64,000 nt of DNA from Maylandia zebra (taxonomy: Eukaryota; Chordata; Actinopteri; Cichliformes; Cichlidae), in NCBI RefSeq assembly GCF_041146795.1, contig NC_135173.1, forward strand, positions 54,128,365 through 54,192,364. Reading direction: 5' to 3'. The notes beneath the pieces are model-generated. The model was not told the origin of the DNA. It worked only from the letters and a program-made list of their open reading frames with translations, and did no database searches. Below, piece by piece: positions 360-51,021 of this stretch. A program made the position numbers and the translations under genes. The first letter of the stretch is position 1; each line of letters starts with the position of its first letter.

Positions 360-2809
360 ATGAGAGCGAGACACGTATATGTTCTTTTGCATATTTTTTT
401 GACTGTCGGCGTGCTAGTTAAAGCATTTGATCCGATCACAACAACAGTGGTTATCGGTATAGGCGCGACTCTAGGGCGGACTATCTACAATTACTTTCGC
501 GAAAGCTGCGATTCCAAATGGATCGCCTTCAATGCGACAGGTGAGCAGGTGCCCCGTGCAGTGTAAACATAATAGCTCTGTGCACATGGTTTGTTTGACC
601 TCGATTAAAAGTGCAGGCAGCTGTAACGTTAATTAGTTACGTTATCGTACGGCGCCGACGTTACAGTGCTATCGGTGTGGCTTATTTTAACCCTCGAAAC
701 TGAAAGCTAACTATCAGAGTAAAAGACTTTTAGATCACCTTTCAGCAGTGAACATTATGTAGACCCATCGGGTAACCTGATCTAAGCCAAAGACCGCCAC
801 TGCTGCCTCTTTAAATGTGAAAGGACTGAAGGAGCTCACTGTAGATGTGTATGAATGTTTACATTAACTTTTTATCAGCCTGTAAAATGATGGAAATGTT
901 TGCTTATGTTTGACACCACTGTTCTAGGTAGTCTTAACTGCTCATCTCGTCTCCGTGCAGTGTATGATTAAGAGGGTGTTCTAAATGAAGTTCTTCTAAA
1001 AGGCACGATGTTAGCCATTTTTTATCCTCCAAGCTGGTCAGCTTGAGGATCTGGGAGCAGCTTAAAGTACTTTGGTCACATGAACCATAAACCTAGTTGC
1101 AGCTGGAGTTTGATTCAGATCTTTTATGGCCATAATACAAATTTAATTATCCATCCGCCTTCACAGATTATCCAATGGAGAATTGGAGGTTACCCAAGCT
1201 GTCAGTGCACTTAATTAAAAAATTTTAAAGTATTTATTCAAATTTTTATCCATTCTATTTTTTAACCATTTGATCAGTTACTCTTTCTTGCACACAAAGT
1301 TTGTACTGTCCTGTCAGGTACTTGTTGATATATCTTTCCACTAACTACATGAACATATGAACTTATAAATGGTTTATGATAATGAAGAAGGTGAGACTTT
1401 TAGCAGCCCTACTGCTGTGGCTAAGGAATGCAAGAAAATAGTTTTAGACTCATACATTTAGCCGTTAATTCCTTTGACATTCTGCTGTGTAGGTCTCCGA
1501 AATGACCTGGATACCAAACTCTTTGGGCAGCACATCGCTTCACGCATCCTCTTAAAAGCTGTGAGTGGATTCATGAGCAATGAGAACCCGAAGAAGCCCC
1601 TGGTGCTCTCCCTGCACGGATGGACGGGCACAGGGAAGAACTTTGTCAGTAAGCTGATTGCTGAAAACATTTACAAGGAGGGAATGGACAGCAGCTTCGT
1701 TCATGTGTTCACATCCACACTTCACTTTCCACATCAAAGTCAAAGTGCATGCTATAAGGTACGGAGAGCCACGCATTTAGCTTTTGATTGAAACCCAGTG
1801 GTCTTGCTCTGTTTGGTCCGATTTATTCTGCTGCCTCTCTCTCCTCAGTCTCAGTTACAGCAGTGGATCAAAGGCAACGTCACAAACTGCGAACGCTCCA
1901 TGTTCATTTTTGACGAGATGGATAAGATGCATCCCGGCTTGATCGACAGCATCAAGCCCTACCTGGACTACTATGTCAAGCTGGACGGAGTTTCTTACCG
2001 CAAATCAATCTTCATCTTTCTCAGGTGAAAAGCTGAATGCATTTCCACAGGACTAAGTCACTTTAAGCAGGTTCTGTATCTGTGTGGGTGTTGCACAGTG
2101 CATGTGAACAGCAATGCTCCTACTCCTCAAAAACACATTTGGAAAGAGGTTTCTGAGATGGTAATGGCTAATGGGCTCTTATTGTTGTTATTAAATCAAC
2201 TGAATATGAGCAGTGCTGTCCACAAAAAAAAAATCCCTAGCAGTATAAGGAGTGTGCTATACTTATTCTCAACAATGAAGTAAATAAAGGTATAAAGGCT
2301 GTGAGTGATAACAGACAGTTGAACGCTAAATCTTATGTTTCTAATCTTTGTCATAGCAATGCTGGAGGGGAGAGCATTATACAGACGGCGTTAGATTTTT
2401 GGAAACAAGGGCGAGATCGAGAAGAGATTGAGCTCAAAGACCTGGAAACATCGCTCTCTCTGTCAGTGTTCAACAACAACCAAAGTGAGTGTAAACGACA
2501 CTAATATTTCTGCCTTTATCCTTTATAAATGAGTAACTGCTCCACATGGAAATCTTTGTTCCAGGTGGCTTTTATCGTACGAATTTGATAGACAAGAACC
2601 TGGTGGACTTCTTCGTCCCTTTCTTGCCTCTGGAGTACCGACACGTCGTCCAGTGCGCCATGGCCGAGATGAAAGCCAGAGACATCAAGCCAAACCAGGA
2701 CGTGGCAGACATGGTGGCCAGAGATTTAGTGTATTTCCCCAAATCGGAGAGGGTTTTCTCTGTGAAAGGCTGCAAGACGATAGAGAGCAAGCTGGACTAC
2801 TACACATAA
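360..2809 (+). CDS. Torsin-1-like AAA+ ATPase of the ER lumen/nuclear envelope
   Basis: Torsins are AAA+ ATPases of the ER lumen and perinuclear space, activated by LAP1/LULL1-type cofactors. Five exons join in frame: 360-540, 1493-1758, 1849-2024, 2357-2484, 2565-2809. They give 331 aa; human TOR1A has 332. Residues 1-22 form a signal peptide and the hydrophobic segment continues to about residue 40. The Walker A motif is the torsin form GWTGTGKN (103-110). Walker B is FIFDEMDK with Glu172. The sensor-2 GCK motif has Cys320. The C-terminus ends LDYYT. The fold and all ATPase motifs are intact. The position of the human DYT1 Glu302-Glu303 pair reads Arg-Asp here. It could be any torsin-1-clade fish paralogue (tor1 or a tor1-like gene), so no symbol is assigned. 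It lies tail to tail with nsa2. Confidence 0.93.
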
Positions 2810-11800: not shown

Positions 11801-14170
11801 TAAACTGCAGCTCTTGTGGGGTGTTCCCGAGTTGCAGCGGTCAGTAGAAAGGTGAAAGAGAGGTGTCAGAATACACCGTGTGTCCCAGTTTGTTGCATAT
11901 GGGGATCCGTAATCGCAGACCCGTCAGGTTCTCCATGCTCACCTCTGTCAACCTCTGAAAGGGCCAACAATGGTCATGTTAGCATCAGGAATGGTTGACT
12001 TGGCCTCCAAATTCTGAAAATTCAATCGAGCGGCTGTGGGATGTGCTGGACAAACAAGACTGATACACGGAGGCCCTTAAGCCCTGTTCATTATCATCTC
12101 ACAGGCGGTGGTACAAAGACGACCTGTGTGCACTGGCCTTCAAGGTTCTCCACGACAAGCAGCGCGGCCCTCTGGTGTTTCTCAGGATCTACTCTGGTAC
12201 TCTGAAACCACAGATGGCGCTCCACAACATCAACAGGAACAGCACGTATGCAGTTTCGAACCTCTGATCTCCACAGCAGCTGCAGTGTAACACACTTTCA
12301 CAGACGTACTCCATCACAGAGTCATTATTACAACACAGCATGTCCAATCTTGTATATTTGCAGTGAGAGGATGAGCAGGCTGCTGGTGCCATTTGCTGAC
12401 CAGCATGTAGAAATCCCTTCGATGACAGCGGGAAATATTGCTCTTACTGTGGGACTCAAGCAGGTAGAGCTTCTCTAAATTTCCAATATTTGCTTAAATT
12501 AAGATCCCCCCCCCCCCCACCATCAAATGTTCCTTATGGTTTCTCCTTTCATTTAAGACAGTTACAGGAGACACTATTGTGTCATCGAAGGCGTCAGCAG
12601 CAGCCGCGGCCCGTCGAGCCCAAAATGACAGCGAGGCGGGAAAGAGGAGCAGAGAGTGTGCCAGCGTGATCCTGTCAGGAGTGGAGGTCCCTGATCCCGT
12701 CTTCTTCTGCACCATAGAACCGCCATCTATGTCCAAACAGGCCGGTCAGTTATTTGAGGCGATTATGTGCAAAGTGTGTAGCTGTGCTTCACCAACTGTG
12801 CTCACTCACTTATTAATTTTTTTTTTTTTTTACCATGAAAGATCTTGAAAATGTGCTCAACTGCCTCCAAAGAGAAGACCCCAGTCTCAAAGTCCGAGTT
12901 GATCCAGACTCTGGTCAGGTAATGCATCGGATTAGCCGGGACTTTCTTTGTCCAGTGCTAGAATGAGTCACCGAAACCACCTTCGCTCTCCGTTCTCAGA
13001 CCATTTTATGCGGAATGGGAGAGCTGCACATCGAGATCATCCACGATCGAATCAGAAGAGAGCACGGCATTGAGACTCACCTCGGGCCGCTGCAGGTTGC
13101 TTACAGAGAGACAATTCTCCACGAGGCTTCGGCTTCAGGTACAAACACTTTTCACTTGTTACATTTGGAGGAACAGTTTTCGTCAGCTTCGCGCAGCAGC
13201 CGTCAAATTCTTTTTATGAATTTGGTGCAGACACGCTGGACCGGACAGTAGGGGAGAGAAGACATGTCGTAACAGTGGAGCTGGCTGTCAGGCCTGTGGA
13301 TGTCGCCTCAGTGGGTGGTTCATGCGAACTGGCTTTCACAGAAGAATTAGAGGGACAGCTTTCAGCAGAAATGAAAGAGGCAGTGGAGAATGGAGTGCAC
13401 AGCTCATTTCTTCAAGGTAAATGGACCAAACTCATTTTTTCCCTCTTTCAGGGAAACACACAAAGCACTGGAACGTCCCTTATTTTAGTTAAATATTTTT
13501 TTAATTATATGCTGTATATTTATTACAATTTCCCCCCCTTAATTGCAATAACTCCTTCATTCAGGGCCACTGCTAGGTTACCCATTGCAGAGTGTGTCTA
13601 CACTGATGCAGCGTGTTACCATAGAACCTGGGACTTCACCTGCCATGGTGTCTGCCTGCGTGTCTCGCTGCATGCTGAAGGTAAAAGCATTATTGATAAG
13701 CTCTAATTGGTTAGTGCTGGAACTATAAGGCTGAGCCGTGGTTCCATTTCTTTGGATGCAGGCCCTGCGGCTCGCGGGCGGACAGGTCCTCGAGCCAGTC
13801 ATGTCGTTAGAAGTGACTGTCGGCGATGACCACCTCAGCTCGGTGCTGGGAGACTTGGCTCAAAGACGAGGAACGGTCAGAGACATCCAGAGCCGTCATG
13901 ACAACAAGGTGCTCTTAGCAACCGTGCCCCTGGCTGAGATGATGGTGAGAGGACACTCAAACGTTAACAGATTGCTTTTTTGGAGGGTTTAATTTGCTAG
14001 TGAGAATTATTTCTGATTTAAAAATTTGTGTCCACGTAAAGGGTTATTCCACCGTTCTACGAACACTGACATCTGGCAACGCCACATTCTCCCTGGAGCT
14101 GGATACCTACGAGGCCATGAACCCTCAGGAGCAGAACACACTCCTCAAAAGACTCTCTGGCCTGCTGTGA
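8814..14170 (+). CDS. gfm2: Mitochondrial ribosome-releasing factor 2 (EF-G2mt)
   Basis: GFM2 is the mitochondrial EF-G paralogue. With RRF it splits the post-termination mitoribosome and uses GTP hydrolysis to leave. Twenty exons: 8814-8855, 8945-9029, 9395-9440, 9534-9631, 9752-9877, 9948-10036, 10137-10225, 10326-10386, 10748-10933, 11027-11107, 11213-11361, 12105-12245, 12364-12463, 12558-12744, 12842-12918, 13000-13138, 13231-13416, 13565-13680, 13762-13944, 14042-14170. They give 769 aa (human 779). An Arg-rich presequence covers about residues 1-40. GTPase motifs are complete: AHIDAGKT (66-73), RGITIQS, DTPGH, NKMD and CGSSL. EF-G domains II-V follow, including [10 protein letters not shown] and [10 protein letters not shown]. 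The ATG at 8814 was chosen because it opens the Arg-rich leader; an upstream non-coding exon is possible. Confidence 0.96.
10519..10556. repeat. (ATAC)n microsatellite in gfm2 intron 8
   Basis: About nine uninterrupted ATAC units. A simple repeat away from the splice sites. Confidence 0.9.
11645..12075 (+). mobile_element. Decayed, internally deleted Tc1-family element in gfm2 intron 11
   Basis: The order of sequences matches a common fish Tc1-type transposon: a GTGGGACATATTAGGCAGCAA start, helix-turn-helix-like coding remnants around 11740-11830, then GTCAGAATACACCGTGTGTCCCAG-like sequence, then TCGAGCGGCTGTGGGATGTG near 12027. Most of the catalytic half is missing and the frame is broken, so no protein is made. 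Assigned by recognition of the family sequence; the limits are approximate. Confidence 0.65.
12507..12520. repeat. Poly-C run in gfm2 intron 13
   Basis: A short homopolymer C tract between exons 13 and 14. Length is likely variable. Confidence 0.7.
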
Positions 14171-14645: not shown

Positions 14646-16601
14646 TCAGACACCCTTGTACTCATGTGGACAGTAGCTGGAAAACAGCGGCTCAGCTGGG
14701 ATGCCGCGCCTAATGTAGGACAAAATTATTTAGTAGTGGAACAACACCTTAATGCAAAATACCTAAATGAATCTCCTCTTAACAGAAAGGCACCTGCTAA
14801 CTGATAAAATTAGCAGGTAGATACAAATTAGTGGTACAAAGGCTCCTCTGATACTTACTCTACCATACGGCAGCGGTGCAGCGACAGTCTGTTGAAGGCA
14901 TCGCCGATGTCGGTCACGTCTTTGGCGCTCCACAGCCGCTCTGCCACAGCACTGGCACGAGGCCTGGAAGTAATAACAAGAAGCAGAAGTTTTGGTTGTC
15001 TGGAGTATTCAGGTTAACTCAATGAGGGAGGAAAGCAATCAGCAGTGATCTTAGAGAAGCAATTGTTGCTGCCCATCAATTTGGGAGGGCTTATATGGAC
15101 ATTTTGAAAGTCTCACATCAGAAAAAGACTGAACAAGTATGGGTTTGTTTGGAAGACTTGCCAGGAGAAAGCCTCTCCTCTAAAACATGGCAGCACAGAT
15201 TAGGTTTCGGGGATAATATCCTTTGAACAGATGAGACTAAAACAGAAGTCTTTGGCCAAATTGGTGGAAATCGAACACAGCATTGGCACAAACACCTCGT
15301 AACAACTGCCAAGCACAGTGGTGGAGGGGTGATGATTCAGGTTGTACCGAGTCAACCATGAACTCCTCTGAATACTAAAGTATTGTAGAAGCAAATGTGA
15401 GATTTCAGAAAATTCAGAAAACCTATAACAGAATGGCTGAAAGAGAAAAAAGTAATGCTGTATTGGCACAGTCAAAGTCCAGACCACGCTCTCGACCTCA
15501 AACCTGATTGAAATATACTCCACAGCATTAGATAAATACTTCAAGAGAGCTGTGTTCATGCAAATAGCTCTCAAAGGTTCCTGAAAACCTCAATAAATTG
15601 AACATTGTAAACCAGAGGTCTCCAACCTTTTTTGCGCCATGGACCGGTTTATGCCCGACAATATTTTCACGGACCGGCCTTTAAGGTGTCGCGGATAAAT
15701 ACAACAAAATAAAACTAGTACCGGTACCGAAAAAAAAAGATTTATTCATAACACACGTGAAAAGACCCAGGAAAACAGAGTTAACGATAAAAACGATAAC
15801 AAAATAACGCTGAAAACCGATAAAAACCCTGAAAACCATACATTTCACACCTGAGCCTCAACTCTCGCGGCCCAGTAGCAAACGACTCACAGACCGGTAC
15901 CGGTCCGAGGCCCAGGAGTTGGGGACCGCGGTTGTAAACAATAGAGGGCCAAAATTCCTCCACAATGTTGTGAGAGAAAACAATTACTGAATGATAAAGT
16001 GCACCTCGTTTTCTATACACTGCTTCTGCATTTTTGCTTAGTTATTGAATAAAAGAGTGTAATATGTCATGTGTTGTTGAGCTCAGGTAGCATTTACCTC
16101 ATTTAGAACTGAATAATATGCATATTGTCTGTTAATCGCCTATTAAAATGCACCTATATCAGGCTTACCAAAGTCTGGGTGTGAGGTTTGTGGCGTCCAC
16201 ATACTCTCCCCACAAGCAGGCCTCTCCACCAATCACCAGCTTTTTCTGCTCATCAGTTCCTGTTTTAAAATTTAGCATTTGATCGGGTCAGGGAAATTCA
16301 ACAATGACACATTCGAAAAACTGAAAAGGGACAAGTGATGAATAAAATAATTTAATAATTTAAATTATATATTCTCCCGAATGACAGTAAAATATTAATT
16401 TATTGTTCTGCTCGTTACTGAACAGGCTTACACCAATTTACACAGGAGTGACCTTCCTGAAACTTGAGATCTAGGCCAAAAGTTGACTACAGTGTGACCC
16501 TGACAACAACAAAGCAATAAAATATTATCACATGAACGTGGTCAAGTTCTGACAGGTTGTAAATATGAATCGGAAATGACCTTAAAAAAAAAAAAAAAAA
16601 A

Positions 16602-16646
<45 letters not shown>

Positions 16647-19600
16647 TCATTAATGCAGACACAAACCCTTAAAGTCCTGTGGGTCGGCCTTGTAAAAACC
16701 CTGCCAGTCCTGCCCGTAGGAGATACGGTTCAGGTACCAGGGAGTGGACAGCAGGGTCTGGTACCCTGATGCAGTAACGCTTGCCATCTCATTCTGGTAT
16801 TGTTCCTGGTTTCCCTTCCAAACGTGGATTAGTGTGTCTGCTTTCAGCTACACAGCACACACATACACAGACATCTCAGTAATGAGAACATAAGAGAAAA
16901 GTACGGAGAGGAACTAGGACAAAAGCTTTTTCTAGCTTTATAGAGAACCAGTCATGCACAAATGTACCCAACATTGTTTACTCATGACTTCCTTCTCATT
17001 TTTTTCAGTATCATTTCAAATATGCGATTGGTCCCCCATAGTGGTGAAAACAGCAGCACATTAAAAGGAACAACATCTGAAACCACCAACCACAATGCCC
17101 CATGTTCAGTCTGTTGGCCTTTTGTCACAACTGTGCAATTTTCAAGTGTACAAGTGTAAGCCTGTTGGAAGTAACAAAAAAATTGAGTTCATATCAATAT
17201 ATATTCAAAATATGACCAATTCTTGTTTAAAACTGACCTTCAAAGTTGAGTGGTTCAACTTTGTAGTACTTCTGCCAATCCTGCCCGTAGCTAATATAAT
17301 CTAGGTACCATGGAGCAGAGAGGATGGTGGTGTAGCCTGCTGCCGTGACATTGCTCATCTCCTTATCACTTCCGCCACCAATCCACACATGCACTACCGT
17401 GTCAGGCTTTAGCTGGAATGGTTACAAATCAAACTCGTGCACTTGAGTTAAATCGTTACATGAAGGTTGACTGTGACTAAAGAAATGATTAGAGGACATG
17501 ACTGGTGTAACATCGTTTTGCTTTGTTGTCAAGAGTTAGATGAGAATCTCAAGACTAATTTCATGTCTGTCTCTAAGTTAGCATAAAAAGCTAGTAAGCT
17601 AAGCTTACTACAAAGTCTTGAAATGGGTAAATTGCTGTTACGGCCTACATCATAAAATCCCAAAGTCTAATAAGCAGACTTTAAATCTTTTAAGCCATTG
17701 ACTCTCAAACTTTAGTAGCCAGGACCCCATACAGGCAAGACAAGCTTCTTAATGATGCAAATTGAGCTAGTTTGGACTTAGCATCATTTCACAGTATTGA
17801 TTATTTGAATATTTCTCTATGATTGTCAGCTAGCTAATATTAACAAGCTTCCTGAGAAAAGTGACTAATTTCATGACAGTTTAACACAATTATACAGTAC
17901 TGTGCAGAAGTCTGGAGTCACCTTTCCTTTCAGGCTCATGAGAAATATATATATGTATCATGGTAACTATAGCCCCAGTAACCGGCTACTAGTGCGAGCC
18001 TATAATTTAGCATTTAGACAATTGAGTATTTATCCAACTTTCAGCAAGAAAGTAAAAAAAGCATAATTTTTCCAATTAGTCCTTCACTAACTAAATGAAA
18101 AACTTCAAATTAAATCAAAGTTAAATTGATGATAAAGCATTCAACATTCAAATTGATTTAGCTAATGTTTCAAGAACTTACCTTAACACCATTGTCAAAG
18201 ACCTCCTGCCAGATCAGGTAGCCCTTCTTGGTAGAGGTCACAATATCCAAGAGTCTGTTGGATCAAGAAAGCATCAAAGGAAACTTTTTTTTTTTTTTTC
18301 ATTTCAACTATTAAATAACAAACAGAGGTTTGGTGGGAAACACACTTTTGGATGTAGAATGATTCCAGTTTTCTGTAGTCGTCTCCAAAATGTTGCTGCT
18401 CCATGAACTTCTGAATGTCTGGGTTGGACTTCCTGCAGGACAAAGCCAGCAGCTAATATCTGTTGCCTGACCTCTGAGGCGAAAAGTAATTTTTCTGACT
18501 ATGCGTGCACAGTCTCACCAGCATGTGAAGTCCACCTCATCACCTCCCAGGTGAACGTAGCCATCGGGGAACACGGTGCTGATCTCCGTGAAGAACTGAG
18601 CCATGAAGTCGTACGTGGTGTTCAGGATGGGATTCACTGGCCCGAAAGAGCCAGAGGGTTTGGACCCAGAGTAACAGGGTGTGAGAAGATCTTTTTGGCC
18701 TGATGGGAAATGATAGAGTAAAGATCAAGACATCTTCAAAAACAAAAAAAAATTGTTAAAACTAAAAAGTTGTCTAAAAACCTCACCTTTGCCCCAAGAC
18801 TGTGTGTGTCCTGGAGTGTCAAACTCCGGTATGACGCGAATGCCTCTTAGACGAGCAAACTCGATTACCATCTTCACATCGGCTGGTGTATACACGTGGG
18901 TGTATGGGTGGTAAGCTCCCTGCGAACAGTGGATCACAGCACTCTTAATAAAAAGCACCCTGCTCCTCTCTGGTGAAGTTTAAAACCAACAAACTTTGTA
19001 CCGACTTGCTCGCTGAGCTGTGGGAAGGTTCGGCTTAAGTAAGGGAAGGACTGATCATCAACAATGTGCCAGTGGAAAACATTGAATTTGTTCATTGCCA
19101 TTGTTTCCTGTATGAATGAACCAGGAGAGAAAGTAATTTAGAAAGTCTGTTAAATGATTGAAAGGTAAAAAAAAATTTTTTTAATGGTTTTACTCGCACC
19201 AAATTGGCCAAAATGACTTTAATGGGAAGGAAGTGCCGAGAGCTGTCCAGTAAGATGCCTCTGTGTTGAAACCTGGGGAAGTCATTGATTATTGTTGCAT
19301 TGATACTTTTCTGAAAAAGATGCAAAGTTGGGGGACAAAAATTCAATTCAAATCTAGCTCACAAAAAGTTCTTTAAGGATTAACATGGTAGAAACAAAAA
19401 ACAGAACCAGCCAAATGTCTTCAACTTACAGCTCCATATTCATCTTCAAACACCAACTGGCTAAAGGTTTCCAGGCCTAGAAAAAAATATAGCAATCCAA
19501 AATAAACACATGATACAGTTCTTGGAAAACATTACACACCCATAAAACTAAATGTAATCTGAAAACAGCAAAGGATAATATGACCAAAGTTCAACAACAA

Positions 19601-22585
19601 CAAGTCATGTTGAGGTGTGTCCTGTGTAAAAGCTCTTTGGCATTAACATCAGCACAAAAACTGCACTAGGAACTTCGTGGTCTGGGTTTCCAAGGCTGAG
19701 CAGCACCTGTAGGTGGCCCAGTACTTTTGGACAAAGAGTCTATGAAGCTACAACTATAGTTAGCTTAGCATTAAAGCTATAAACAGGAAGCTGTGGCACG
19801 TCTACCAATTGGAAGGTTGTGGTTTGATCCCGGCTCCTTCAGCTTACATGTTCCCAGTGTGTTCATAGGATTTTGAGTGTGTGTAGGATGTGTAGGACTT
19901 TGGGTGAGTGCAGTAAAAAGCACTTTGAGGGCTCAATTAGAGCAGAAAAGCACCATACAAGTATGAGTCCATTTAGCATTTGCAAACACGGAAGACCTGA
20001 GCAGACTATTACTGTACACAAATAAATGAGGTGCAACATGATCATTTATAAGCTTGAGAGCTGCTGGATGACTTTGTTCACCCCGTTTCTAGCTAATCAG
20101 GGCCTTGATTTGATAGCTATCATCTCGTCTCTCAGCCAGTAATCGAATAAGGAAATTTCTCAAAAAACAAACAAGATAAACAAAAACTATTCATATGAGC
20201 TATTTAATTTAAAAAAAAAAAAAGACAAAGAAATCTTTATAGAATTTCTTGTTTTCTTACTACTAAACAGAAAAGGGGAAATAAGAAATTATTTGACAAA
20301 GAAAATAAATGCTGTAAATCCTACCGTGCAGAGCTCCCCAGACCTTAGGTGCCTTCAGGACAGCAACTGGCTGATTCACTGTCAGTTCATCTGTAAGAAA
20401 CCACCACCTGTTTACTGCATATTCAGCGTGTCAAAACTTGGCCGATTGTTGTAGAGGTGTTCAGGTCAGGGTATGGAAATGGTCAAGTCACGGCCTTAAG
20501 GAAGGATTTGAACATTTGGTGTAGATTAAGGTTAGGGTTAATTCTAGTATTTGATCTCCAGGTGATCACTAATTCCACTGCAAAGTCTTCAGTGTGACCA
20601 CGGAAACCAGCCAAAAATGCTCTAGTGCACTGAAATTACCCTGCATTTCCAATGTAAATAAATGTATCATCAATGAAATATTAGTCAGAGCATTCACAGA
20701 AAAATGAATGTTATAACTTTCTTTGAATGAAAACAATTTCATTTGTAAATCAAATAAAATGCAAGTTGGTGGTACTAAAGTCAATACTGACGTTTTGTAA
20801 GAAGTCACATGTCAAAAATGTAATTAAACTCTGTAATTTAATGAAATTTTAATCTCTTTAAAACATCACAATATAAACCTGTTTTTTTTCTTCATTTCAG
20901 TCTGATTTCTAAATGTACTTCTAAGTTAGGTGTTAAAGTCTAAGAAAACAGGACAGAAACCACAAGCAAGAGTAGATAAATATCATGCTCATCATGCAGA
21001 GGCAGATAACAGTTTGCAATATTCATTTCTGCATAATCACAGATGGACGAAGTGTTAAGATCATTTATATACGCTTGTGAAAACGACCTTGTCTACAGGA
21101 CTACGCAGTCCTGTTAAAAACTACGTACACCCCTTGATTCAGCAGCAGAATGCCTCAAACTATTGTTTGCTTATTGTAGTATTGTACTGTTGTAGTGTTC
21201 TCTGTATGACTGGAATAGTCTCTCGTTGGTGTAGAGGCATTTTGGCCCAAAAGCCATGGCTGACAGTTGGTATGAGGTATTTGTGCTGATTAACTGCGTT
21301 CGAAATTTGGAGTTGTAAATTATGACCAAACATCACCCCTTGGGCATTGTTCCAGAAGTGTTGTGATTCATTCTTATGCACATAAAAAAAAAAAAAAAAA
21401 CATAAAAAACCTCTCTAAACAACCCATTTGGAGAGGCTGTTTGTAATTGTACTATCATGGATTTTAACCTTTAACATGCTAACTGAGGCCTGTAGTGTCT
21501 GAAATGCTTTTGCTCTGACCTTGGGGTGAATTTCCTGGGATGTTAAATGCCCAAACTTGTGCCTTTAGAGAGGTGCCCACAGTGGCCAATGATCAATTAA
21601 TCAAGCTGGCACCTGGCTGCCACTTAACCTTTTAATTCCTATGGGAGCTGTAAGCGTGTACTTAGTTTTTCCACATGGTTGCATAGTATGAAAATTTGTT
21701 TTCAGGTGGCAATAGTTACAATCAAGTTAGGAACACTTCATACATAATCAATATAAAACAGCTGTACAAATTTGCTCCATATTTTCATTCATTCGGTTTC
21801 ACTTTCATTGCACATCTTTTTCGTTTGGTTTGCTTTGTAAAATCAGAAAGTGGGAAGTACCCTGAAAAGCTGGAACATACATGTAATAGAGTAAAAAGTA
21901 CACAATTTCCCCTCTGTGACGCAAGGCAGTTTAGTAACAGTAGTTACAGCTTGTTACATGGAATAGCTGAGGAAGAGGCGCCTGATTGGATACCGCCGTA
22001 AAACATGACATGAACGAGGAAGGGAAGGTACTCACATGACTCGTCAGAAGTCACACTGGGGTATCCGTCACATTCAGAGTCAGGTGATGTGATCCACACC
22101 TGCAGCTCGGACAGATCAGAGGGATCTGATCGCCTGTTGTTTTTGCTCCACCACTGCTTTTTAGCGCTGCCGAACATGTACTCATAATACCTGCAGAGAG
22201 AGACCGCACGAGGGTGGAAACTGGCCCCTGAACGCAACACGGGCTGCGGTGTTGAGATTTCGCCACATATATAAATAATGTGCAGCGATTTAAATAAATA
22301 AATATAAAAACAGCTTATAAACACAGCTGCTCACCTCCTGTATGCGCTCTGTAGGAGACTGCAGCTCGGTCCAGCGGACGATGCTTTGGCATCAACAATC
22401 CTGAAGCTGCTACTGGTTAACTTGAATGAAACCTCTGAAATCTGCACTTTCTGCGGCAGAGGCCACAGGGAGCCGTACTTTGACGCCTCGAAAACGGGCT
22501 CGGCCTCAACATAGTCGTCGATGTTGTTGTGCTGCAGGCCCTGGCAGAAACTAAGGGCCAGCAATAGCGACACGAACTTCAGCAT
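14646..22585 (-). CDS. hexb: Beta-hexosaminidase subunit beta (GH20), with two alternative exons 11
   Basis: A lysosomal GH20 enzyme that removes terminal GlcNAc/GalNAc from glycolipids and glycans. Exons in transcript order: 22585-22335, 22190-22036, 20390-20325, 19476-19430, 19310-19200, 19107-19006, 18919-18787, 18699-18519, 18432-18346, 18254-18182, 11a 17412-17238 or 11b 16847-16667, 16259-16169, 14963-14859, 14709-14646. This gives 546 aa with 11a or 548 aa with 11b (human HEXB 556). Residues 1-16 are a signal peptide. The substrate Arg is Arg190 ([11 protein letters not shown]). The catalytic pair is Asp342-Glu343 (HLGGDEV). The C-terminal part is beta-like ([21 protein letters not shown]). 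Exon 8 encodes GSKP at 300-303, resembling the human alpha GSEP loop. Synteny with gfm2 and enc1 makes it hexb rather than hexa. The exon 6 donor is the weak GTCGGT. Confidence 0.95.
15035..16110 (+). mobile_element. Decayed Tc1-family transposon in hexb intron 12, split by a hAT element
   Basis: Transposase remnants run from about 15035 (GAAGCAATTGTTGCTGCCCATC) through GCCAGGAGAAAGCCTCTCCT, GACAAGAT-like and AGTCAAAGTCCAGACC motifs to 15604. They resume after 15940 with GGGCCAAAATTCCTCCACAA and the 3' tail TAATATGTCATGTGTTGTT. Many frameshifts make it dead. It lies antisense to hexb. Confidence 0.75.
15613..15931. mobile_element. hAT-type MITE nested in the Tc1 remnant
   Basis: A 319-bp element with imperfect terminal inverted repeats: CAGAGGTCTCCAAC on the left and, read inversely, CCGCGGTCCCCAAC on the right. 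A perfect 8-bp target duplication TTGTAAAC flanks it at 15605-15612 and 15932-15939. The ends and duplication length are diagnostic of hAT. No coding capacity. Confidence 0.9.
16584..16643. repeat. Poly-A plus (TA)n tract beside hexb exon 11b donor
   Basis: 22 A residues (16584-16605) followed by (TA)n to 16643. On the hexb sense strand it reads (TA)n then poly-T. It starts about 23 nt past the exon 11b donor, where U-rich tracts can affect donor choice. Confidence 0.9.
16667..16847 (-). other. hexb: hexb alternative exon 11b (alpha-type pocket)
   Basis: A 181-bp open exon with acceptor TAG and donor GTTTGTG. It starts in phase 0 and ends with one leftover base, as 11a does. It is homologous to 11a over its whole length (VW, SGY, PWYL, ISYGQDW). 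It reads [11 protein letters not shown], so residues 442-443 are Asn-Arg, as in human HEXA Asn423-Arg424. The stretch from the VW motif to SGY is 19 residues, against 20 in human alpha and 17 in beta and 11a. There is no stop, and the splice-site dinucleotides are intact. Expression is unproven from sequence. Confidence 0.85.
17238..17412 (-). other. hexb: hexb alternative exon 11a (beta-type pocket)
   Basis: A 175-bp exon with acceptor CCAG and donor GTCAGTT. It reads [11 protein letters not shown], so residues 440-441 are Asp-Tyr, matching the Asp-Leu of human HEXB. The loop length equals human beta. This is probably the default exon of the gene. Confidence 0.9.
19785..19980 (+). mobile_element. 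tRNA-derived SINE fragment in hexb intron 3-4
   Basis: A B-box-like GGTTTGATCCC lies near 19822-19832 and the A-box part is lost. The tail (AAGCACTTTGAGGGCTC ... CAGAAAAGCACCATACAAGTA ... GTCCATTTAGC) matches the tail of the SINE at 56438-56705. A truncated, diverged copy. Confidence 0.75.
21085..21695 (-). mobile_element. Decayed Tc1-family transposon in hexb intron 2
   Basis: The same family as the element in intron 12 but in reverse order: TGGAGTTGTAAATTATGACC, CATTGTTCCAGAAGTGTTGTG, TTTAACATGCTAACTGAGGC, then GTGTACTTAGTTTTTCCACATGG near the end. Extensively mutated. Confidence 0.7.
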
Positions 22586-31401: not shown

Positions 31402-32543
31402 TGTTTTATACCTAGCATATAAATGGAAGTCTGTTCCTTCTTCTGAAGCATTTTATTGATGTTTTTTTTTTTCTTATTGAGCCATCAGAACTTTTTAATC
31501 ATTATAATTTACAGCAGCTGTCAGGTTGTGGAGCTATTTGCAGTCAAGAATGAAATTACAAAACCATTAGAAACAAGCCCAGTCCTGTTTTTGTACTAAA
31601 ACCTACCCTTACTACTAGGATTAACCAGCCTTCTATCAAATTCTATCAAGACCGATAGACTTAGGGGCAGGCTGACAACTTAAAATGTCTGTCAGCTGTG
31701 GATTTACTGGGTTAGACAGAGACTTGGTCCCTCTGTAAATAGAGTGCAGAAGGCACTAGACATGTCTAGAAATTGGTTGGAATAAAAGCGAGCTGTGAGC
31801 GAGCACAGGGCGAAGACAGTGAAGATGGGAGCTGTGATTTTCTGGAAGGAGAGTGCATTTCTCAGAGGCTTAAAAGAGCCCCACTGTCTCTTTCTTTTTC
31901 CCTTTTCATGAAGAATCCTCTGCAAAGGGAAACTTCATTGTTAATCGTGGCATCTCTGAAAGAGGAGGATTAGCATTGCTCAGAGCTGCAAGGCCTTGCA
32001 GTCTCTGCAAGAACACAATTGTTATCTACTCGACCTTCAGAACCCTCAGATTTATGCTGTTTTGTAATTTGTAATCACTTGATCTCTTTCTGAATATCTT
32101 GATCTCTTGGGAATGATTGAGATTCCTCCTCCAAAAATACATTTTACGTTTTTGTTTTTTTATCTCATTGTGGATATCAGTGCCCAACAATGTAATATAT
32201 CAGCATCAACATCACCACATAGTGCATCCACTGTATTCACTTCACTAAACCTACATTTTTATGACTAATTGTACAGGACAAACAGTTTGTTTGCACTGTA
32301 AAGCTCCTGATTAATAGCTACTACATGCCCCATTTTTCAACATAAATTGCATCTAGCTTTAAATTTTAGTGGATGTGTTTAAAAGGTTAAGATACACCAT
32401 ATTACAGACTATTTGAAGACGGAAGATACACGTTGTGGGAAATGTTGAATTGGTGAATAATAATTATGTGTAGTGGGCTTCAAATGTGCAGTGCATTGAT
32501 GAGAGATTTTTCTTTATCTCTTTCATTTTAGGATTCAATGAAA

Positions 32544-34313
32544 ATGTCCGTGTGCGTCCATGAGAACCGAAAATCGCGAGCCAGCACCGGCTCCATGAAC
32601 ATCTACCTTTTTCACAAGTCCTCCTATGCCGACAGCGTCCTTATGCACCTCAACTCGCTGCGGCAGCAAAGGCTTTTCACCGACGTCTTGCTCCATGCTG
32701 GCAGCCGCTCCTTTCCCTGCCACCGCGCAGTGCTGGCTGCCTGCAGTCGCTACTTTGAGGCCATGTTCAGCGGTGGCCTGAGGGAAAGTCAGGCCAGTGA
32801 GGTTGACTTCCATGATTCGATCCACCCGGAGGTTTTGGAGCTCCTGCTGGATTACGCTTATTCATCACGGGTGGTCATCAATGAGGAGAATGCAGAGTCG
32901 TTGTTGGAGGCTGGGGACATGTTGGAATTTCAGGACATCCGGGATGCCTGCGCAGAATTCTTAGAGAGAAACCTTCACCCATCCAACTGCCTTGGCATGC
33001 TTCTGTTGTCAGATGCCCATCAGTGTACCAAGCTGTCAGAGCTCTCCTGGGGCATGTGCCTCAGCAACTTTCCTGCTATTTGCAAGACGGAGGACTTCCT
33101 CCAACTGCCCAAAGATATGGTGGTGCAGCTTTTATCACATGAGGAGCTAGAGACAGAAGACGAGAGACTGGTTTACGAAGCTGCTCTTAACTGGATCAAC
33201 TACGACTTGGAAAGGAGGCACTGCCATCTCCCGGAGCTCCTGAGAACGGTTCGCCTTGCGCTATTGCCTGCCATCTTTTTAATGGAGAACGTCTCTACCG
33301 AAGAGCTAATTAACTCCCAGGCCAAGAGCAAGGAGCTGGTGGATGAAGCTATTCGCTGTAAGCTGAAAATCCTGCAGAACGATGGCGTTGTTAACAGCCC
33401 ATGTGCTCGACCCAGAAAAACCAGCCATGCCCTGTTTCTTCTGGGTGGCCAGACTTTCATGTGTGACAAGTTGTACCTTGTGGACCAGAAAGCCAAAGAG
33501 ATCATCCCAAAGGCTGACATCCCCAGTCCACGGAAGGAGTTTAGTGCCTGTGCAATTGGATGTAAGGTGTACATCACTGGTGGCAGAGGCTCAGAAAATG
33601 GCGTGTCCAAAGATGTTTGGGTCTATGACACTGTCCACGAGGAATGGTCAAAGGCGGCACCCATGCTGATTGCCAGGTTCGGCCACGGGTCTGCAGAGCT
33701 GAAACACTGTCTCTACGTCGTAGGTGGTCACACCGCAGCGACAGGCTGCCTTCCAGCTTCTCCATCAGTGTCTCTCAAACAGGTGGAGCAGTTTGACCCC
33801 GTGGCAAACAAGTGGACAATGGTAGCTCCTCTGAGAGAGGGTGTGAGCAACGCAGCAGTAGTTAGCGTCAAACTCAAACTCTTTGCTTTCGGAGGAACCA
33901 GCGTCACCCACGACAAGCTGCCCAAGGTGCAGTGCTACGATCCGCAGGAGAACCGATGGACCGTGCCTGCATCCTGCCCTCAGCCATGGCGCTACACAGC
34001 CGCCGCTGTCCTGGGAAACCAGATCTTCGTCATGGGCGGAGACACAGAGTTCTCAGCATGCTCAGCATACAAGTTCAGCAGCGAGAGCTACCAGTGGACA
34101 AAAGTGGGTGATGTGACTGCCAAGAGGATGAGCTGCCAGGCTGTGGCATCAGGGAACAAACTCTATGTGGTGGGTGGGTACTTTGGCACACAGAGGTGTA
34201 AAACTCTGGACTGCTATGACCCCACACTGGATGCATGGAACAGCATAACTACAGTGCCATACTCACTCATTCCTACTGCTTTTGTCAGCACCTGGAAACA
34301 TCTACCTGCTTGA
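32544..34313 (+). CDS. enc1: Ectodermal-neural cortex protein 1 (BTB-BACK-Kelch)
   Basis: ENC1 (KLHL37) is an actin-associated Kelch protein and a CUL3 substrate adaptor, expressed in the developing nervous system. The entire 589-aa coding sequence is in one exon and is near-identical to human ENC1 (589 aa). The BTB domain covers about residues 40-145 (FTDVLLHAGSRSFPCHRAVL, FEAMFSGGL). BACK spans about 150-250. Six Kelch repeats follow from about 295, with GG pairs and spaced W residues (FLLGGQ, YITGGRG, YVVGGHT, FAFGGTS, FVMGGDT, YVVGGYF). It ends FVSTWKHLPA. I chose ATG 32544 because vertebrate ENC1 starts MSV; an in-frame ATG at 32538 would add two residues in a weaker context. The acceptor at 32530-32531 leaves a short 5' UTR on this exon. 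Confidence 0.98.
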   Translation: MSVCVHENRKSRASTGSMNIYLFHKSSYADSVLMHLNSLRQQRLFTDVLLHAGSRSFPCHRAVLAACSRYFEAMFSGGLRESQASEVDFHDSIHPEVLELLLDYAYSSRVVINEENAESLLEAGDMLEFQDIRDACAEFLERNLHPSNCLGMLLLSDAHQCTKLSELSWGMCLSNFPAICKTEDFLQLPKDMVVQLLSHEELETEDERLVYEAALNWINYDLERRHCHLPELLRTVRLALLPAIFLMENVSTEELINSQAKSKELVDEAIRCKLKILQNDGVVNSPCARPRKTSHALFLLGGQTFMCDKLYLVDQKAKEIIPKADIPSPRKEFSACAIGCKVYITGGRGSENGVSKDVWVYDTVHEEWSKAAPMLIARFGHGSAELKHCLYVVGGHTAATGCLPASPSVSLKQVEQFDPVANKWTMVAPLREGVSNAAVVSVKLKLFAFGGTSVTHDKLPKVQCYDPQENRWTVPASCPQPWRYTAAAVLGNQIFVMGGDTEFSACSAYKFSSESYQWTKVGDVTAKRMSCQAVASGNKLYVVGGYFGTQRCKTLDCYDPTLDAWNSITTVPYSLIPTAFVSTWKHLPA

Positions 34314-47230: not shown

Positions 47231-47787
47231 TGTCATGGTCCTGGGCCATGTGGGCCCAGTATTCTTAGTTTTCATGTATTTTTGTATTTTGTTCTTTATT
47301 TAGGCCATGCTTCCTGGGTTGATCTGTTACGTTGTTCCTTATGTGTTTTCCCTTCGTGACTCTTACCCCCTGTGTGCCCCTCTGTGTATTTATGAGCCCT
47401 CGTCTCTCTTTGTGCTTTATTCTATGTTTTCCCCAGCCCGTTATGTCTGCGTTCTCCCCGTGCTCTCTCTCCTCCTGTTTGAACCTCTGTGTACTTCCTG
47501 CTTTACTTTGCCCATCTCCCATCAGTGTTACGTTCACTCCTGCCGTGTCTTGTTATGATTATCAGTGTCACCTGTGTTCCCCGTGTGCATCCACTTCCCC
47601 TTATCATCCCTCATGCTGTGTGTGATTCCCCTGTGTTCCTTGGTGAGCTTTATGTTAGTTTTTCCCAGTTTAGTTTTGTATTGTTTCTCGTGGCCAGCAA
47701 TAAAGCTGTGTTTTTGAGTTCATCCCCGTGTGTGTGAGTTTTGCGATTGGGTCCTCATCCTGCCTGCCACACAGCCGAAACATGACA
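47231..47787 (+). repeat. 5' LTR
   Basis: Starts TGTCATGGTCCTGGGCC and ends CGAAACATGACA. A 7-bp stem CTGGGCC/GGCCCAG (47241-47259) lies near its start. The poly(A) signal AATAAA at 47699-47704 is followed by GT-rich sequence, marking the R/U5 zone. TATA-type promoter not obvious. Confidence 0.95.
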
Positions 47788-47805: not shown

Positions 47806-50454
47806 ATGGACCCAGCAGTTCACAACCCCTCCACGGACCTCCAGGACGACACGACCATGTCAGACTCAGCGGACATTTCAGAGGAGGTAGGGGAGGAGCT
47901 GAACCGGCTCTGCCGCATTATGGATCGCATCATCGGATGCGCGGATCCAAGTGTGGTTTCCACAGGATTGGCGGCCGTGGACGCCGTTTTGTTGCGGGAG
48001 CCACGGTTGTGACAGCTCCCCCACCTCGTCGAGGTGTTTGACTCCCTGGGCCCCCTTAAGGAGGAGCTTCGTGCCCGTGCGCTGGCCCAGAGGGTCCTGA
48101 ATGCCGCCTCAGCACCCACACCTCCGTCCCGTGAACGGGTGTCATCGCCGCTGTCTCAGGAGCCGGAAGCAGTTGCGGTTGGAACGGTGAGGCTCGCCAC
48201 CGACACACCCTCCGCTCGCGCCCCGTCGGCTTCCGCGTCTTCACCGCGGTCTGGCCGCACGGCGTGGCACACGGAGACGACGGAGGCCATAGACTTTGGC
48301 GAGGAAGAGCGGCAGCAGGTGTTACGGGCTTATCGGGAGGACGAGCTCCGGTGGAAGCCCTGGCTCATCCCGGAGGAGGACCTCTCACCTGCTGCACAGC
48401 CTACCAGCCGCTCGCCGTCTCCAATCCGCTTAGACTTTACTTCGCCTGCCTCATTTCTGGCAAGGATGTGGGCGGACGACCGGGAGATCGCCGCTACATC
48501 ACCCCCTGCATTGGTGCCATCAGCGCCCATCGCGCCAGCTACCAGAAGGGGGCGGCGCCGGTGCCGCCGTGGCACCGCATTAACTCCGGTGAGTGACTGC
48601 GTTTTCGTGCCTCACGTCCCCTCTATGAAGCAGAGTGAGATGAGCATTGATTTGCCGGGGCCGGACACTATGACTGAATCGTGTTCGGAGACTGACAGTA
48701 CAGTGTTTAGTTGTTTAGAAAGACCTACTAAGGAAATCATGGAGTCCGGTCTCTGTGAGCAGCAGCAAGCAGCTTGCACCCACGTAGAGGAGGAGCTCCG
48801 GGGAAAGCCGTGGCCTACCCCCGATTGTCAGCACATCTTTCGGGGAACACGCCTGGCTCTCGGGGGCCCTCGGAGCCACCAGGGTCCGCAGCCCTTCACA
48901 GTTCAGTTAGCTCCCTCGCAGCCACCCTCAGTTCAGTTAGCTCCCTCGCAGCCACCCTCAGTTCAGTTAGCTCCCTCGCAGCCACCCTCAGTTCAGTCTC
49001 CCGTGCCGCCTGTAGCGCAGGCCCCAGTAGCTCCCGTGCCGCCTGTAGCGCAGGCCCCAGTAGCTCCCGTGCCGCCTGTAGCGCAGGCCCCAGTAGCTCC
49101 TGTAGCCCAGTCCCCGATAGCAGTACGGTCCGCTGGTCAGCTTAACATTCAGCCAGGGGTCTCAAGTCTCTCTGGCTCTGCATCAGCTCCTGCTGGGAGC
49201 TCGGATGAGCTCATCCAGGACTCCGCGGCTCCCACGCCGCCACCTACCTCGTCAGCTGGAGGGTCCGAGGGGCCCGTTCAGCCTCCTGTCTCCGCTGGAG
49301 GGTCCGAGGGGCCCGTTCAGCCTCCTGTCTCCGCTGGAGGGTCCGAGGGGCCCGTTCAGCAACCTTCCTCGTCAGCTGGGGGTTCTGGAGAACCGCACCA
49401 GCCTCATGCCACGTCAGCTGGAGGGTCCGAGGGGCCCGTTCAGCCTCCTGTCTCCGCTGGAGGGTACGAGGGGCCCGTTCAGCAACCTTCCTCGTCAGCT
49501 GGGGGTTCTGGAGAACCGCACCAGCCTCATGCCACGTCAGCTGGAGGGTCCGAGGGGCCCGTTCAGCCTTCTGTCTCCGCTGGAGGGTCCGAGGGGCCCG
49601 TTCAGCCTCCTGTCTCAGCTGGAGGGCCCGAGGAGCCCGTCCGGCCTCACGCCTCGTCTGCTGGAGGGCCCGAGGAGCCCATCCAGCCACCTTCTGCTAC
49701 GCCTGGTCCGGCCTGTGCTTCGTCTGCTGCAGCTCCGGCCTGTGCTTCGTCTGCTGCAGCTCCGGCCTGTGCTTCGTCTGCTGCAGCTCCGGCCTGTGCT
49801 TCGTCTGCTGCAGCCTCAGAGTCTTCGTCTGCTGCAGCCTCAGAGTCTTCGTCTGCTGCAGCCTCAGAGTCTTCGTCTGCTGCAGCCTCAGCCGGTGCTT
49901 CGCCTGGTCCCGCCTCAGCCGGTCCTGTGCCCACCGGGCCTCGGCCAGTACGCCTGACACTGGAGAGCCGCCGCCGCCGCCTTGCGCACTGCCAACCCCC
50001 TGAACTGCTTCGCCGCCGCCTTGCGCACTGCCGGCCCCCTGAACTGCTTCGCCGCCGCCTTGCGCACTGCCGGCCCCTTGAACTGCTTCGCCGCCGCCTT
50101 GCGCACTGCCGGCCCCCTGAACTGTTCTGTCACCGTGGCCACCTTTCCCGTGGCCGGCCTCCGGATCTGTTCTGTCACCGTGGCCACCTTTCCCGTGGCC
50201 GGCCTCCGGAACGGTTGGACTGGACTTTTGTGTTGTCGCCTCTCGGGTTGGCCTTCGGGCCTCTTTGGACATTCGCCTTCCTGTTCTGGACTCTTTTGTG
50301 TATTTGTGGACTCAGTTTTGTTCTCGTGCTCCTTGTTTTTGGTTCGTTTTGTTCCCTCCGTCCTGGTCCCCCGCCTCCCGCCCTGGGTGGGGTGTTTTCT
50401 GTTTCGCTTGTGTTTTGTTTCTCGGGTTTGGGCTGTCGGGAGCCAGCCCTTTAG
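47806..50454 (+). CDS. Repeat-built internal reading frame of the LTR element, with one in-frame TGA
   Basis: From ATG 47806 one frame covers the interior: 68 codons, a TGA at 48010-48012, then open to TAG 50452-50454, just before the 3' LTR. The 806-codon part begins at GTG 48034. The N-terminal 200 residues look helical and acidic (EELNRLCRIMDRII, LKEELRARALAQRVL). Related blocks EDELRWKPWLIPEED and EEELRGKPWPTPD occur twice. Tandem peptides follow: PSQPPSVQLA, PVPPVAQAPVA, SAGGSEGPVQPPV, ACASSAAAP, SESSSAAA, RRRLAHCRPPELL and HRGHLSRGRPP. A hydrophobic stretch (about 50226-50350) could be a membrane segment. No gag zinc knuckle or polymerase motif is seen. Function unknown. Confidence 0.6.
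48889..50215 (+). repeat. Mosaic of coding tandem repeats inside the LTR element
   Basis: Successive arrays have units of 30 bp (x3, from about 48900), 33 bp (x3, from 49010), 39 bp (about 11-12 copies, 49255-49690), 27 bp (x4, 49705-49812), 24 bp (x3, 49813-49880), 39 bp (x4, 49970-50120) and 45 bp (x2, 50120-50210). All unit lengths are multiples of three, so several frames on both strands stay open. Confidence 0.9.
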
Positions 50455-50464
50455 GGGGGGGTGG

Positions 50465-51021
50465 TGTCATGGTCCTGGGCCATGTGGGCCCAGTATTCTT
50501 AGTTTTCATGTATTTTTGTATTTTGTTCTTTATTTAGGCCATGCTTCCTGGGTTGATCTGTTACGTTGTTCCTTATGTGTTTTCCCTTCGTGACTCTTAC
50601 CCCCTGTGTGCCCCTCTGTGTATTTATGAGCCCTCGTCTCTCTTTGTGCTTTATTCTATGTTTTCCCCAGCCCGTTATGTCTGCGTTCTCCCCGTGCTCT
50701 CTCTCCTCCTGTTTGAACCTCTGTCTACTTCCTGCTTTACTTTGCCCATCTCCCATCAGTGTTACGTTCACTCCTGCCGTGTCTTGTTATGATTATCAGT
50801 GTCACCTGTGTTCCCCGTGTGCATCCACTTCCCCTGATCATCCCTCATGCTGTGTGTGATTCCCCTGTGTTCCTTGGTGAGCTTTATGTTAGTTTTTCCC
50901 AGTTTAGTTTTGTATTGTTTCTCGTGGCCAGCAATAAAGCTGTGTTTTTGAGTTCATCCCCGTGTGTGTGAGTTTTGCGATTGGGTCCTCATCCTGCCTG
51001 CCACACAGCCGAAACATGACA
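50465..51021 (+). repeat. 3' LTR
   Basis: Direct repeat of 47231-47787, the same 557-bp length. Poly(A) signal at 50933-50938. The flanking GCTAC at 51022-51026 completes the target duplication. Confidence 0.95.

Follow-up and report, generated by a model that had tools for sequence, protein, structure and literature searches.

The presence of two homologous exons in tandem within the hexb gene of the cichlid Maylandia zebra raises the question of whether one hexosaminidase gene can supply, by choosing between them, both a beta-type and an alpha-type substrate pocket. The stretch of DNA analysed (64,000 nt, referred to here as the window) carries a complete hexb gene of about 8 kb on the minus strand (14646-22585), read as 14 coding exons in a joined exon frame (Table 1). 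The joined frame is open with either form of exon 11, giving 546 amino acids with exon 11a (isoform A) and 548 with exon 11b (isoform B). Isoform B is identical over all 548 residues to an M. zebra protein record labelled 'isoform X1' (P0017), in which the GH20 catalytic domain (PF00728, E = 4.9e-92) and the N-terminal domain (PF14845, E = 3e-23) are both recognized. In a quick tree of 27 proteins made without bootstrap and with exon 11 left out (SH-aLRT 98 for the hexb clade and 96 for the hexa clade) the gene groups with HEXB and not with HEXA, and it is predicted to be the HEXB orthologue, encoding the beta subunit of a GH20 beta-hexosaminidase. Further along the window lies a BTB-BACK-Kelch ORF (32532-34310, plus strand), which we take to be enc1, ENC1 presumably being a neighbour of human HEXB. 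A C-terminal coding sequence lying tail to tail with hexb (about 12500-14170, plus strand) resembles gfm2 when judged by eye, and GFM2 too we take to be a conserved neighbour of human HEXB. The window also contains a torsin-family exon (1462-1788, plus strand; PF06309, E = 3e-37) and two direct repeats (47268-47552 and 50502-50786) with nearly identical translations; between the repeats is an 813-codon repetitive frame (48013-50451) that resembles an LTR element and gave no Pfam match.

Table 1. Exons of the hexb gene, and the intron between the alternative exons, by position in the window
Feature	Positions	Strand	Remarks	Basis
Coding exon 1	22335-22585	-	start codon; isoform B identical to P0017	joined exon frame
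Exon 2	22036-22190	-		joined exon frame
Exon 3	20325-20390	-		joined exon frame
Exon 4	19430-19476	-		joined exon frame
Exon 5	19200-19310	-		joined exon frame
Exon 6	19006-19107	-		joined exon frame
Exon 7	18787-18919	-		joined exon frame
Exon 8	18519-18699	-	common to both isoforms; 13-residue segment aligns with the GM2-activator docking loop	joined frame, alignment
Exon 9	18346-18432	-		joined exon frame
Exon 10	18182-18254	-	donor AAG/GTAAGT; spliced to 11a or 11b	joined frame
Exon 11a	17238-17412	-	beta-type pocket (11-residue motif); 175 nt; phase 0 in, phase 1 out	
Intron between 11a and 11b	16848-17237	-	390 nt	
Exon 11b	16667-16847	-	alpha-type pocket (11-residue motif); 181 nt; phase 0 in, phase 1 out; donor AGG/GTTTGT	
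Exon 12	16169-16259	-		joined exon frame
Exon 13	14859-14963	-		joined exon frame
Exon 14	14646-14709	-	stop codon	joined exon frame

The two forms of exon 11 lie where the first-pass annotation had placed them, on the minus strand with GT-AG sites, and their pocket motifs read as it had given them; the existence of the pair is confirmed. Aligned as proteins the two exons score 192 with BLOSUM62, far beyond chance, since the highest score among 2000 shuffles was 30. At the nucleotide level they agree at 117 of 174 positions, and third positions of shared residues agree in 14 of 30 cases, so that the duplication is old. Either exon alone keeps the reading frame, whereas inclusion of both leads to a stop at codon 480 and omission of both to a stop at codon 411, so that one or the other must be used if an enzyme is to be made; the double-inclusion and skipped products would presumably be removed by nonsense-mediated decay. 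The proposal that the exons are used in a mutually exclusive way is therefore supported by the logic of the frame, together with the existence of records carrying one exon or the other, and with their shared phases the two appear to be mutually exclusive homologous tandem exons. Arrangements of this kind are known as tandem duplicated exon substitution events, in which homologous tandem exons are used one at a time and which are often ancient; in the main text of a survey of such exons in human, fly and worm the terms HEXA, HEXB and hexosaminidase find no match (PMC9741552).

An artefact of assembly or annotation was considered as a source of the pair and rejected, as the pair recurs across ray-finned fishes. 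Among the best 120 of 122 matches to the exon 11b region every match with a named organism was a ray-finned fish, the range taking in Acipenser ruthenus (P0092), Arapaima, elopomorphs, otophysans, salmonids, cods and percomorphs. Among the best 120 of 358 matches to the exon 11a region the range was similar and included the sturgeon Huso (P0227), many of the records being labelled 'isoform X2'; it should be noted that both ranges describe the matches listed, and the absence of sharks, gar and tetrapods from them carries no meaning. Between cichlid and sturgeon the protein identity of 11b (77%) is close to that of 11a (79%) and lies within the range of the other exons (49-94%), 11b being about as constrained as its neighbours. 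For 21 species one 11b record and one 11a record were chosen by eye from the matches listed, and in 13 of these the two records show no differences and no gaps outside exon 11; in the other eight they also differ or have gaps elsewhere. From the same best-120 lists 224 hexb proteins were classified, these being entries of a database clustered at 90% rather than species. Fifteen of the 224 models contain both exons; they were taken to be prediction errors, because in the window's gene the frame is lost when both are included (in P0039, P0040 and P0146 what looks like a second copy is a PWFL match outside exon 11).

The first-pass annotation would have been undermined by a lack of transcripts joining exon 10 to 11b and 11b to 12. 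Protein records with the 10-11b-12 join and with the 10-11a-12 join both exist, and six of them come from contigs of about 2 kb: P0025 and P0068 for 11b (1984 and 2110 bp) and P0136, P0150, P0195 and P0197 for 11a (1868-1963 bp). These six contigs (1868-2110 bp) encode 546-564 amino acids continuously across the 10-11-12 joins and, as the gene in the window occupies 8 kb in 14 exons, are most simply explained as spliced transcripts. Judged from such protein records both isoforms are probably expressed. The X1 and X2 isoforms are thus already in public records, where the switch has, as far as we have seen, apparently gone uninterpreted, and many of the isoform labels look like automatic annotation.

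Splice-site scores bear on how the choice might be made and on whether 11b is a working exon at all. Donor scores, which rest on a matrix of assumed frequencies, are 8.5 for exon 10, 4.4 for 11a and -0.9 for 11b, and those of the constitutive exons 5 and 6 are -0.1 and -1.3. The 11b acceptor has a pyrimidine share of 0.56, the same as for exon 3, and exon 12 has a lower one (0.44). Weak 11b sites as a sign of regulated inclusion are not well borne out by these values, the donors of exons 5 and 6 being as weak and the acceptor ordinary. The same low donor score, set against that of 11a, could be taken to mean that 11b is a decoy or dying exon that is rarely spliced and exists mostly as a prediction of annotation software, as could the automatic look of many records, but exons 5 and 6 manage with donors of the same order. 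Such a reading also has to accommodate the passage of 11b from sturgeon to cichlid at 77% identity without a stop or change of frame, the transcript-like contigs behind P0025 and P0068, and the listing of damselfish hexb as differentially spliced, even if the event there is not named (PMC8933327), and we regard it as highly improbable. That 11a is the default and 11b the regulated choice is only a guess. Neither steric exclusion nor a mixture of spliceosomes is evident as the basis of exclusion, since 390 nt is no short distance for an intron and every splice site is of the GT-AG kind. A distant branch point, as described for OGDH (PMC7969005), would be another candidate. Just downstream of the 11b donor, at 16576-16651, a stretch of A, which is T on the strand of the gene, is accompanied by an (AT)n tract, and these could affect splicing in this lineage. 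The damselfish listing refers to the prolonged phase of a marine heatwave, and the main text of that study names no event (PMC8933327).

As claimed in the first pass, the loop ahead of the pocket is of beta length in 11a and nearly of alpha length in 11b: between VW and PWYL, anchors of our own choosing, there are 23 residues in 11a and beta, 25 in 11b (beta plus two) and 26 in human alpha (beta plus three). The absence from 11b of the Glu of the alpha pocket that we take to be Glu394 of human alpha was also borne out, the aligned position being Gly. The contrast between the pocket residues themselves is well kept across fish copies. Among the 224 hexb proteins 11b-type copies read NR in 116 of 119 cases and NY in three, and 11a-type copies have Asp in 119 of 120 (111 DY, seven DL and one DW) with a single NI. 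The NY copies (P0084, P0088 and P0089, from two gobies and Siganus) are natural cases of loss of the Arg. One clupeiform hexb protein (P0121, Coilia grayii), counted with the 11a type, combines an 11b-like loop length and tail with DY in the pocket, a mosaic such as gene conversion between the two exons might produce. Human HEXB has the loop length and the Asp pocket of 11a, and human HEXA shares the N-R pair and a longer loop with 11b, so that two pockets that lie in two genes in humans could both be made from one gene in these fish. The interpretation offered in the first pass, of mutually exclusive and deeply conserved exons with pockets of beta and alpha type, is therefore supported by comparison of residues, substrate specificity being predicted from sequence.

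A further alpha-like element lies outside the alternative exons. In exon 8 the docking loop for the GM2 activator reads GSKPSGS, as compared with GSEPSGT in HEXA and RQNKLDS in HEXB, and agrees with HEXA in five of seven letters. The loop was readable in 214 of the 224 fish proteins (one of the other ten has GSSPSGT), and of these 214 proteins 208 have the first Gly, 201 the Pro, 206 the Ser that follows it and all 214 the second Gly, at the sixth position. The GM2-activator loop in the shared part of fish hexb is thus alpha-like. The combination closely resembles that built into human beta subunits by design. In modHexB (mod2B) Asp452-Leu453 of human beta was changed to Asn-Arg (DL452-453NR) for recognition of anionic substrates and RQNKLDS312-318 to GSEPSGT for binding of the GM2 activator, and the homodimer reduced GM2 in Sandhoff mice (PMC13198282); an earlier form, modB, carried only GSEP in the docking loop (PMC3243693). 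Both share with isoform B a beta backbone with an N-R pocket and an alpha-like activator loop, although each is one fixed, designed protein and the fish version is natural and spliced. Relative to mod2B the fish docking loop carries K in place of E and S in place of T, and the 11b loop is two residues longer than that of beta. Isoform B matches seven of the nine alpha residues grafted into modHexB and isoform A five. Because the shared exon 8 loop is alpha-like and the set of residues is nearly that of modHexB, the alpha-like reading of isoform B is stronger than was apparent in the first pass. In a comparison with PDB sequences the best match of isoform B was modB (5BRO; 755 bits), ahead of wild-type HEXB chains (739-742) and HEXA (662), and in a fold search 5BRO was again first, almost tied with wild-type HEXB chains; this lead partly restates the shared NR and GSxP residues, which are the point at issue. 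An AlphaFold2 model built from 45 sequences with both isoforms mixed has a mean pLDDT of 84.6 and falls below 50 at residues 440-443, so that it is uninformative on the pocket itself.

Exon 11b also retains features of beta. At alpha positions 429 and 436 it has the beta-like Gln and Lys, and at 432-433 it has QG, which is neither alpha nor beta. The engineered alpha homodimers HexM and HexD3 likewise combine an alpha pocket with beta residues at the dimer interface, HexM taking its beta residues within the exon 11 region at alpha 429, 432-433 and 436 (PMC11698352). HexM starts from HEXA, and isoform B differs in the QG at 432-433. From these features a scheme can be proposed in which 11a would give a beta subunit with an Asp-Tyr pocket for neutral GlcNAc or GalNAc ends, and the Asn-Arg pair of 11b would hold an anionic group, either the 6-sulfate of GlcNAc or GalNAc or the sialic acid of GM2. 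Exon 8 would already supply both isoforms with an alpha-like docking loop, and the beta dimer-interface residues that remain may permit B/B homodimers or A/B heterodimers, through which a single gene could supply activities like those of Hex A or Hex S. It is also conceivable that the exons are truly mutually exclusive but that 11b serves to tune pH optimum, choice of dimer partner or action on another neutral glycan, its N-R resembling HEXA by chance or for some other reason. The loss of the Glu394 equivalent and the three NY copies of 11b would fit such a role, as would the variability of HEXA itself, which in a small sample reads NR in human, echidna and Dromiciops, NH in possum and NI in a caecilian, with NV or NT in the b-type exon of sturgeons and paddlefish, so that the Arg and alpha function do not always go together. 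Retention of NR in nearly all 11b copies argues against a non-anionic role, as do the alpha-like docking loop of fish hexb and the finding that the pocket substitutions together with this loop give human HEXB an activity like that of Hex A (PMC3243693, PMC13198282), and we consider a non-anionic role rather unlikely. The reading that we prefer, and think probable, is that hexb carries an old pair of mutually exclusive exons of which 11a specifies a beta subunit and 11b an alpha-like subunit for anionic substrates.

The age of the pair can be approached from its relatives. In exon trees the fish 11b copies fall together (97/95 and 99/96) and human HEXB falls with fish 11a (90/91 and 89/88, values that are not starred and that concern a long human HEXB branch); the tree giving 90/91 was drawn from a hand-picked part of 247 proteins in which the a-type units of Albula and Gymnothorax were missed. 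From this position it seems that the hexb pair already existed before ray-finned and lobe-finned fishes diverged, 11b being lost later in the human line. Exon 11 is 175 nt long in human HEXB and 184 nt in HEXA, which fits the two exon types. Sturgeon hexa has both types as well. In A. ruthenus (P0133) and A. sinensis (P0135) an a-type is followed by a b-type, which is also how they are ordered in hexb, and in P0233 ('isoform X2') and P0230 the two types are used singly; the sturgeon hexa pockets read NL in the a-type and NV in the b-type, and in the sturgeon records examined an N-R pocket occurs only in hexb and not in hexa. It might be supposed instead that 11b is no old paralogue of 11a and that hexb acquired it as a copy from hexa, through gene conversion or exon transfer in an early ray-finned fish. 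The b-type exon of sturgeon hexa does score higher with hexb 11b (mean 208) than with hexb 11a (191), and the exon trees are compatible with a fish-only clade, but the possession by sturgeon hexa of both types in the same order is unexplained by transfer alone, and the grouping of human HEXB with the 11a type, for all its long branch, also speaks against it; we hold a transfer from hexa to be distinctly unlikely. The AU test, on an exon tree that left out P0121 and the duplicate a-type of P0133, rejected none of six groupings (p = 0.399 for a fish-only clade, 0.438 for all a-types, 0.455 for all b-types, 0.53 for all hexb, and 0.425 both for all hexa and for the sturgeon hexa a- and b-types together), 59 columns being too few and the tool itself giving a long-branch warning. 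A fish-only origin of the duplication, though not rejected by this test, is not supported by the position of human HEXB.

Individual characters lean towards grouping by exon type rather than by gene. A Glu before VW is present in 7/13 a-types and in none of 23 b-types or six outgroups; the first Leu of the LLS motif is replaced by Ile or Val in all 13 a-types and is kept in 21 of 23 b-types and all six outgroups; Tyr at column 55 is found in all 13 a-types, no b-type (0/23) and three of six outgroups; and a loop of more than 23 residues is seen in 22 of 23 b-types and in no a-type or outgroup. Columns 58, 59 and 61 follow gene or lineage, sturgeon hexa b-type having V-E-L like hexb 11a and hexb 11b having A-D-[QHY]. 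As nine invertebrate and algal proteins read NL (eight) or NY (one), N-L looks ancestral in this small sample. For the pocket Arg either a single gain followed by several losses or two separate gains may be envisaged, and fish 11b and mammalian HEXA could owe their N-R to inheritance or to convergence. A more far-reaching possibility, which we entertain tentatively, is that the pair arose before HEXA and HEXB separated. The ancestral vertebrate gene would then have produced both pockets through splicing, and after its duplication the line to mammals would have lost one exon from each copy, HEXA keeping the b-type and HEXB the a-type, with ray-finned fish hexb and both sturgeon genes still keeping the switch.

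In the literature searched, which left most subscription journals outside, no description of the switch was found, and hexb was met as differentially spliced in a single listing. Loss of human HEXB removes both enzymes too, and for this reason the loss of activity in hexb-null zebrafish fits the one-gene reading but is no test of it. That loss is reported to exceed 99% of Hex A plus Hex B activity (PMC6772114, PMC10002607). The zebrafish knockout targets exon 1, and the paper speaks of a single hexb gene, its main text being without the word 'isoform' (PMC6772114). If our reading is true, such a knockout in exon 1 would remove both pockets at once, and a zebrafish hexa knockout alone need not model Tay-Sachs disease.

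The alpha subunit is the one lost in Tay-Sachs disease. If isoform B is alpha-like, fish would make from a single gene a substitute for Hex A like those engineered for therapy of Tay-Sachs and Sandhoff disease, and more than 100 natural variants could guide therapeutic design. How the alpha and beta subunits arose could then be tested as a division of splice forms among duplicated genes. If the pair does predate the split of HEXA and HEXB, the division of labour between human alpha and beta would be a splice choice frozen into two loci, from which Tay-Sachs and Sandhoff as diseases of two genes would follow.
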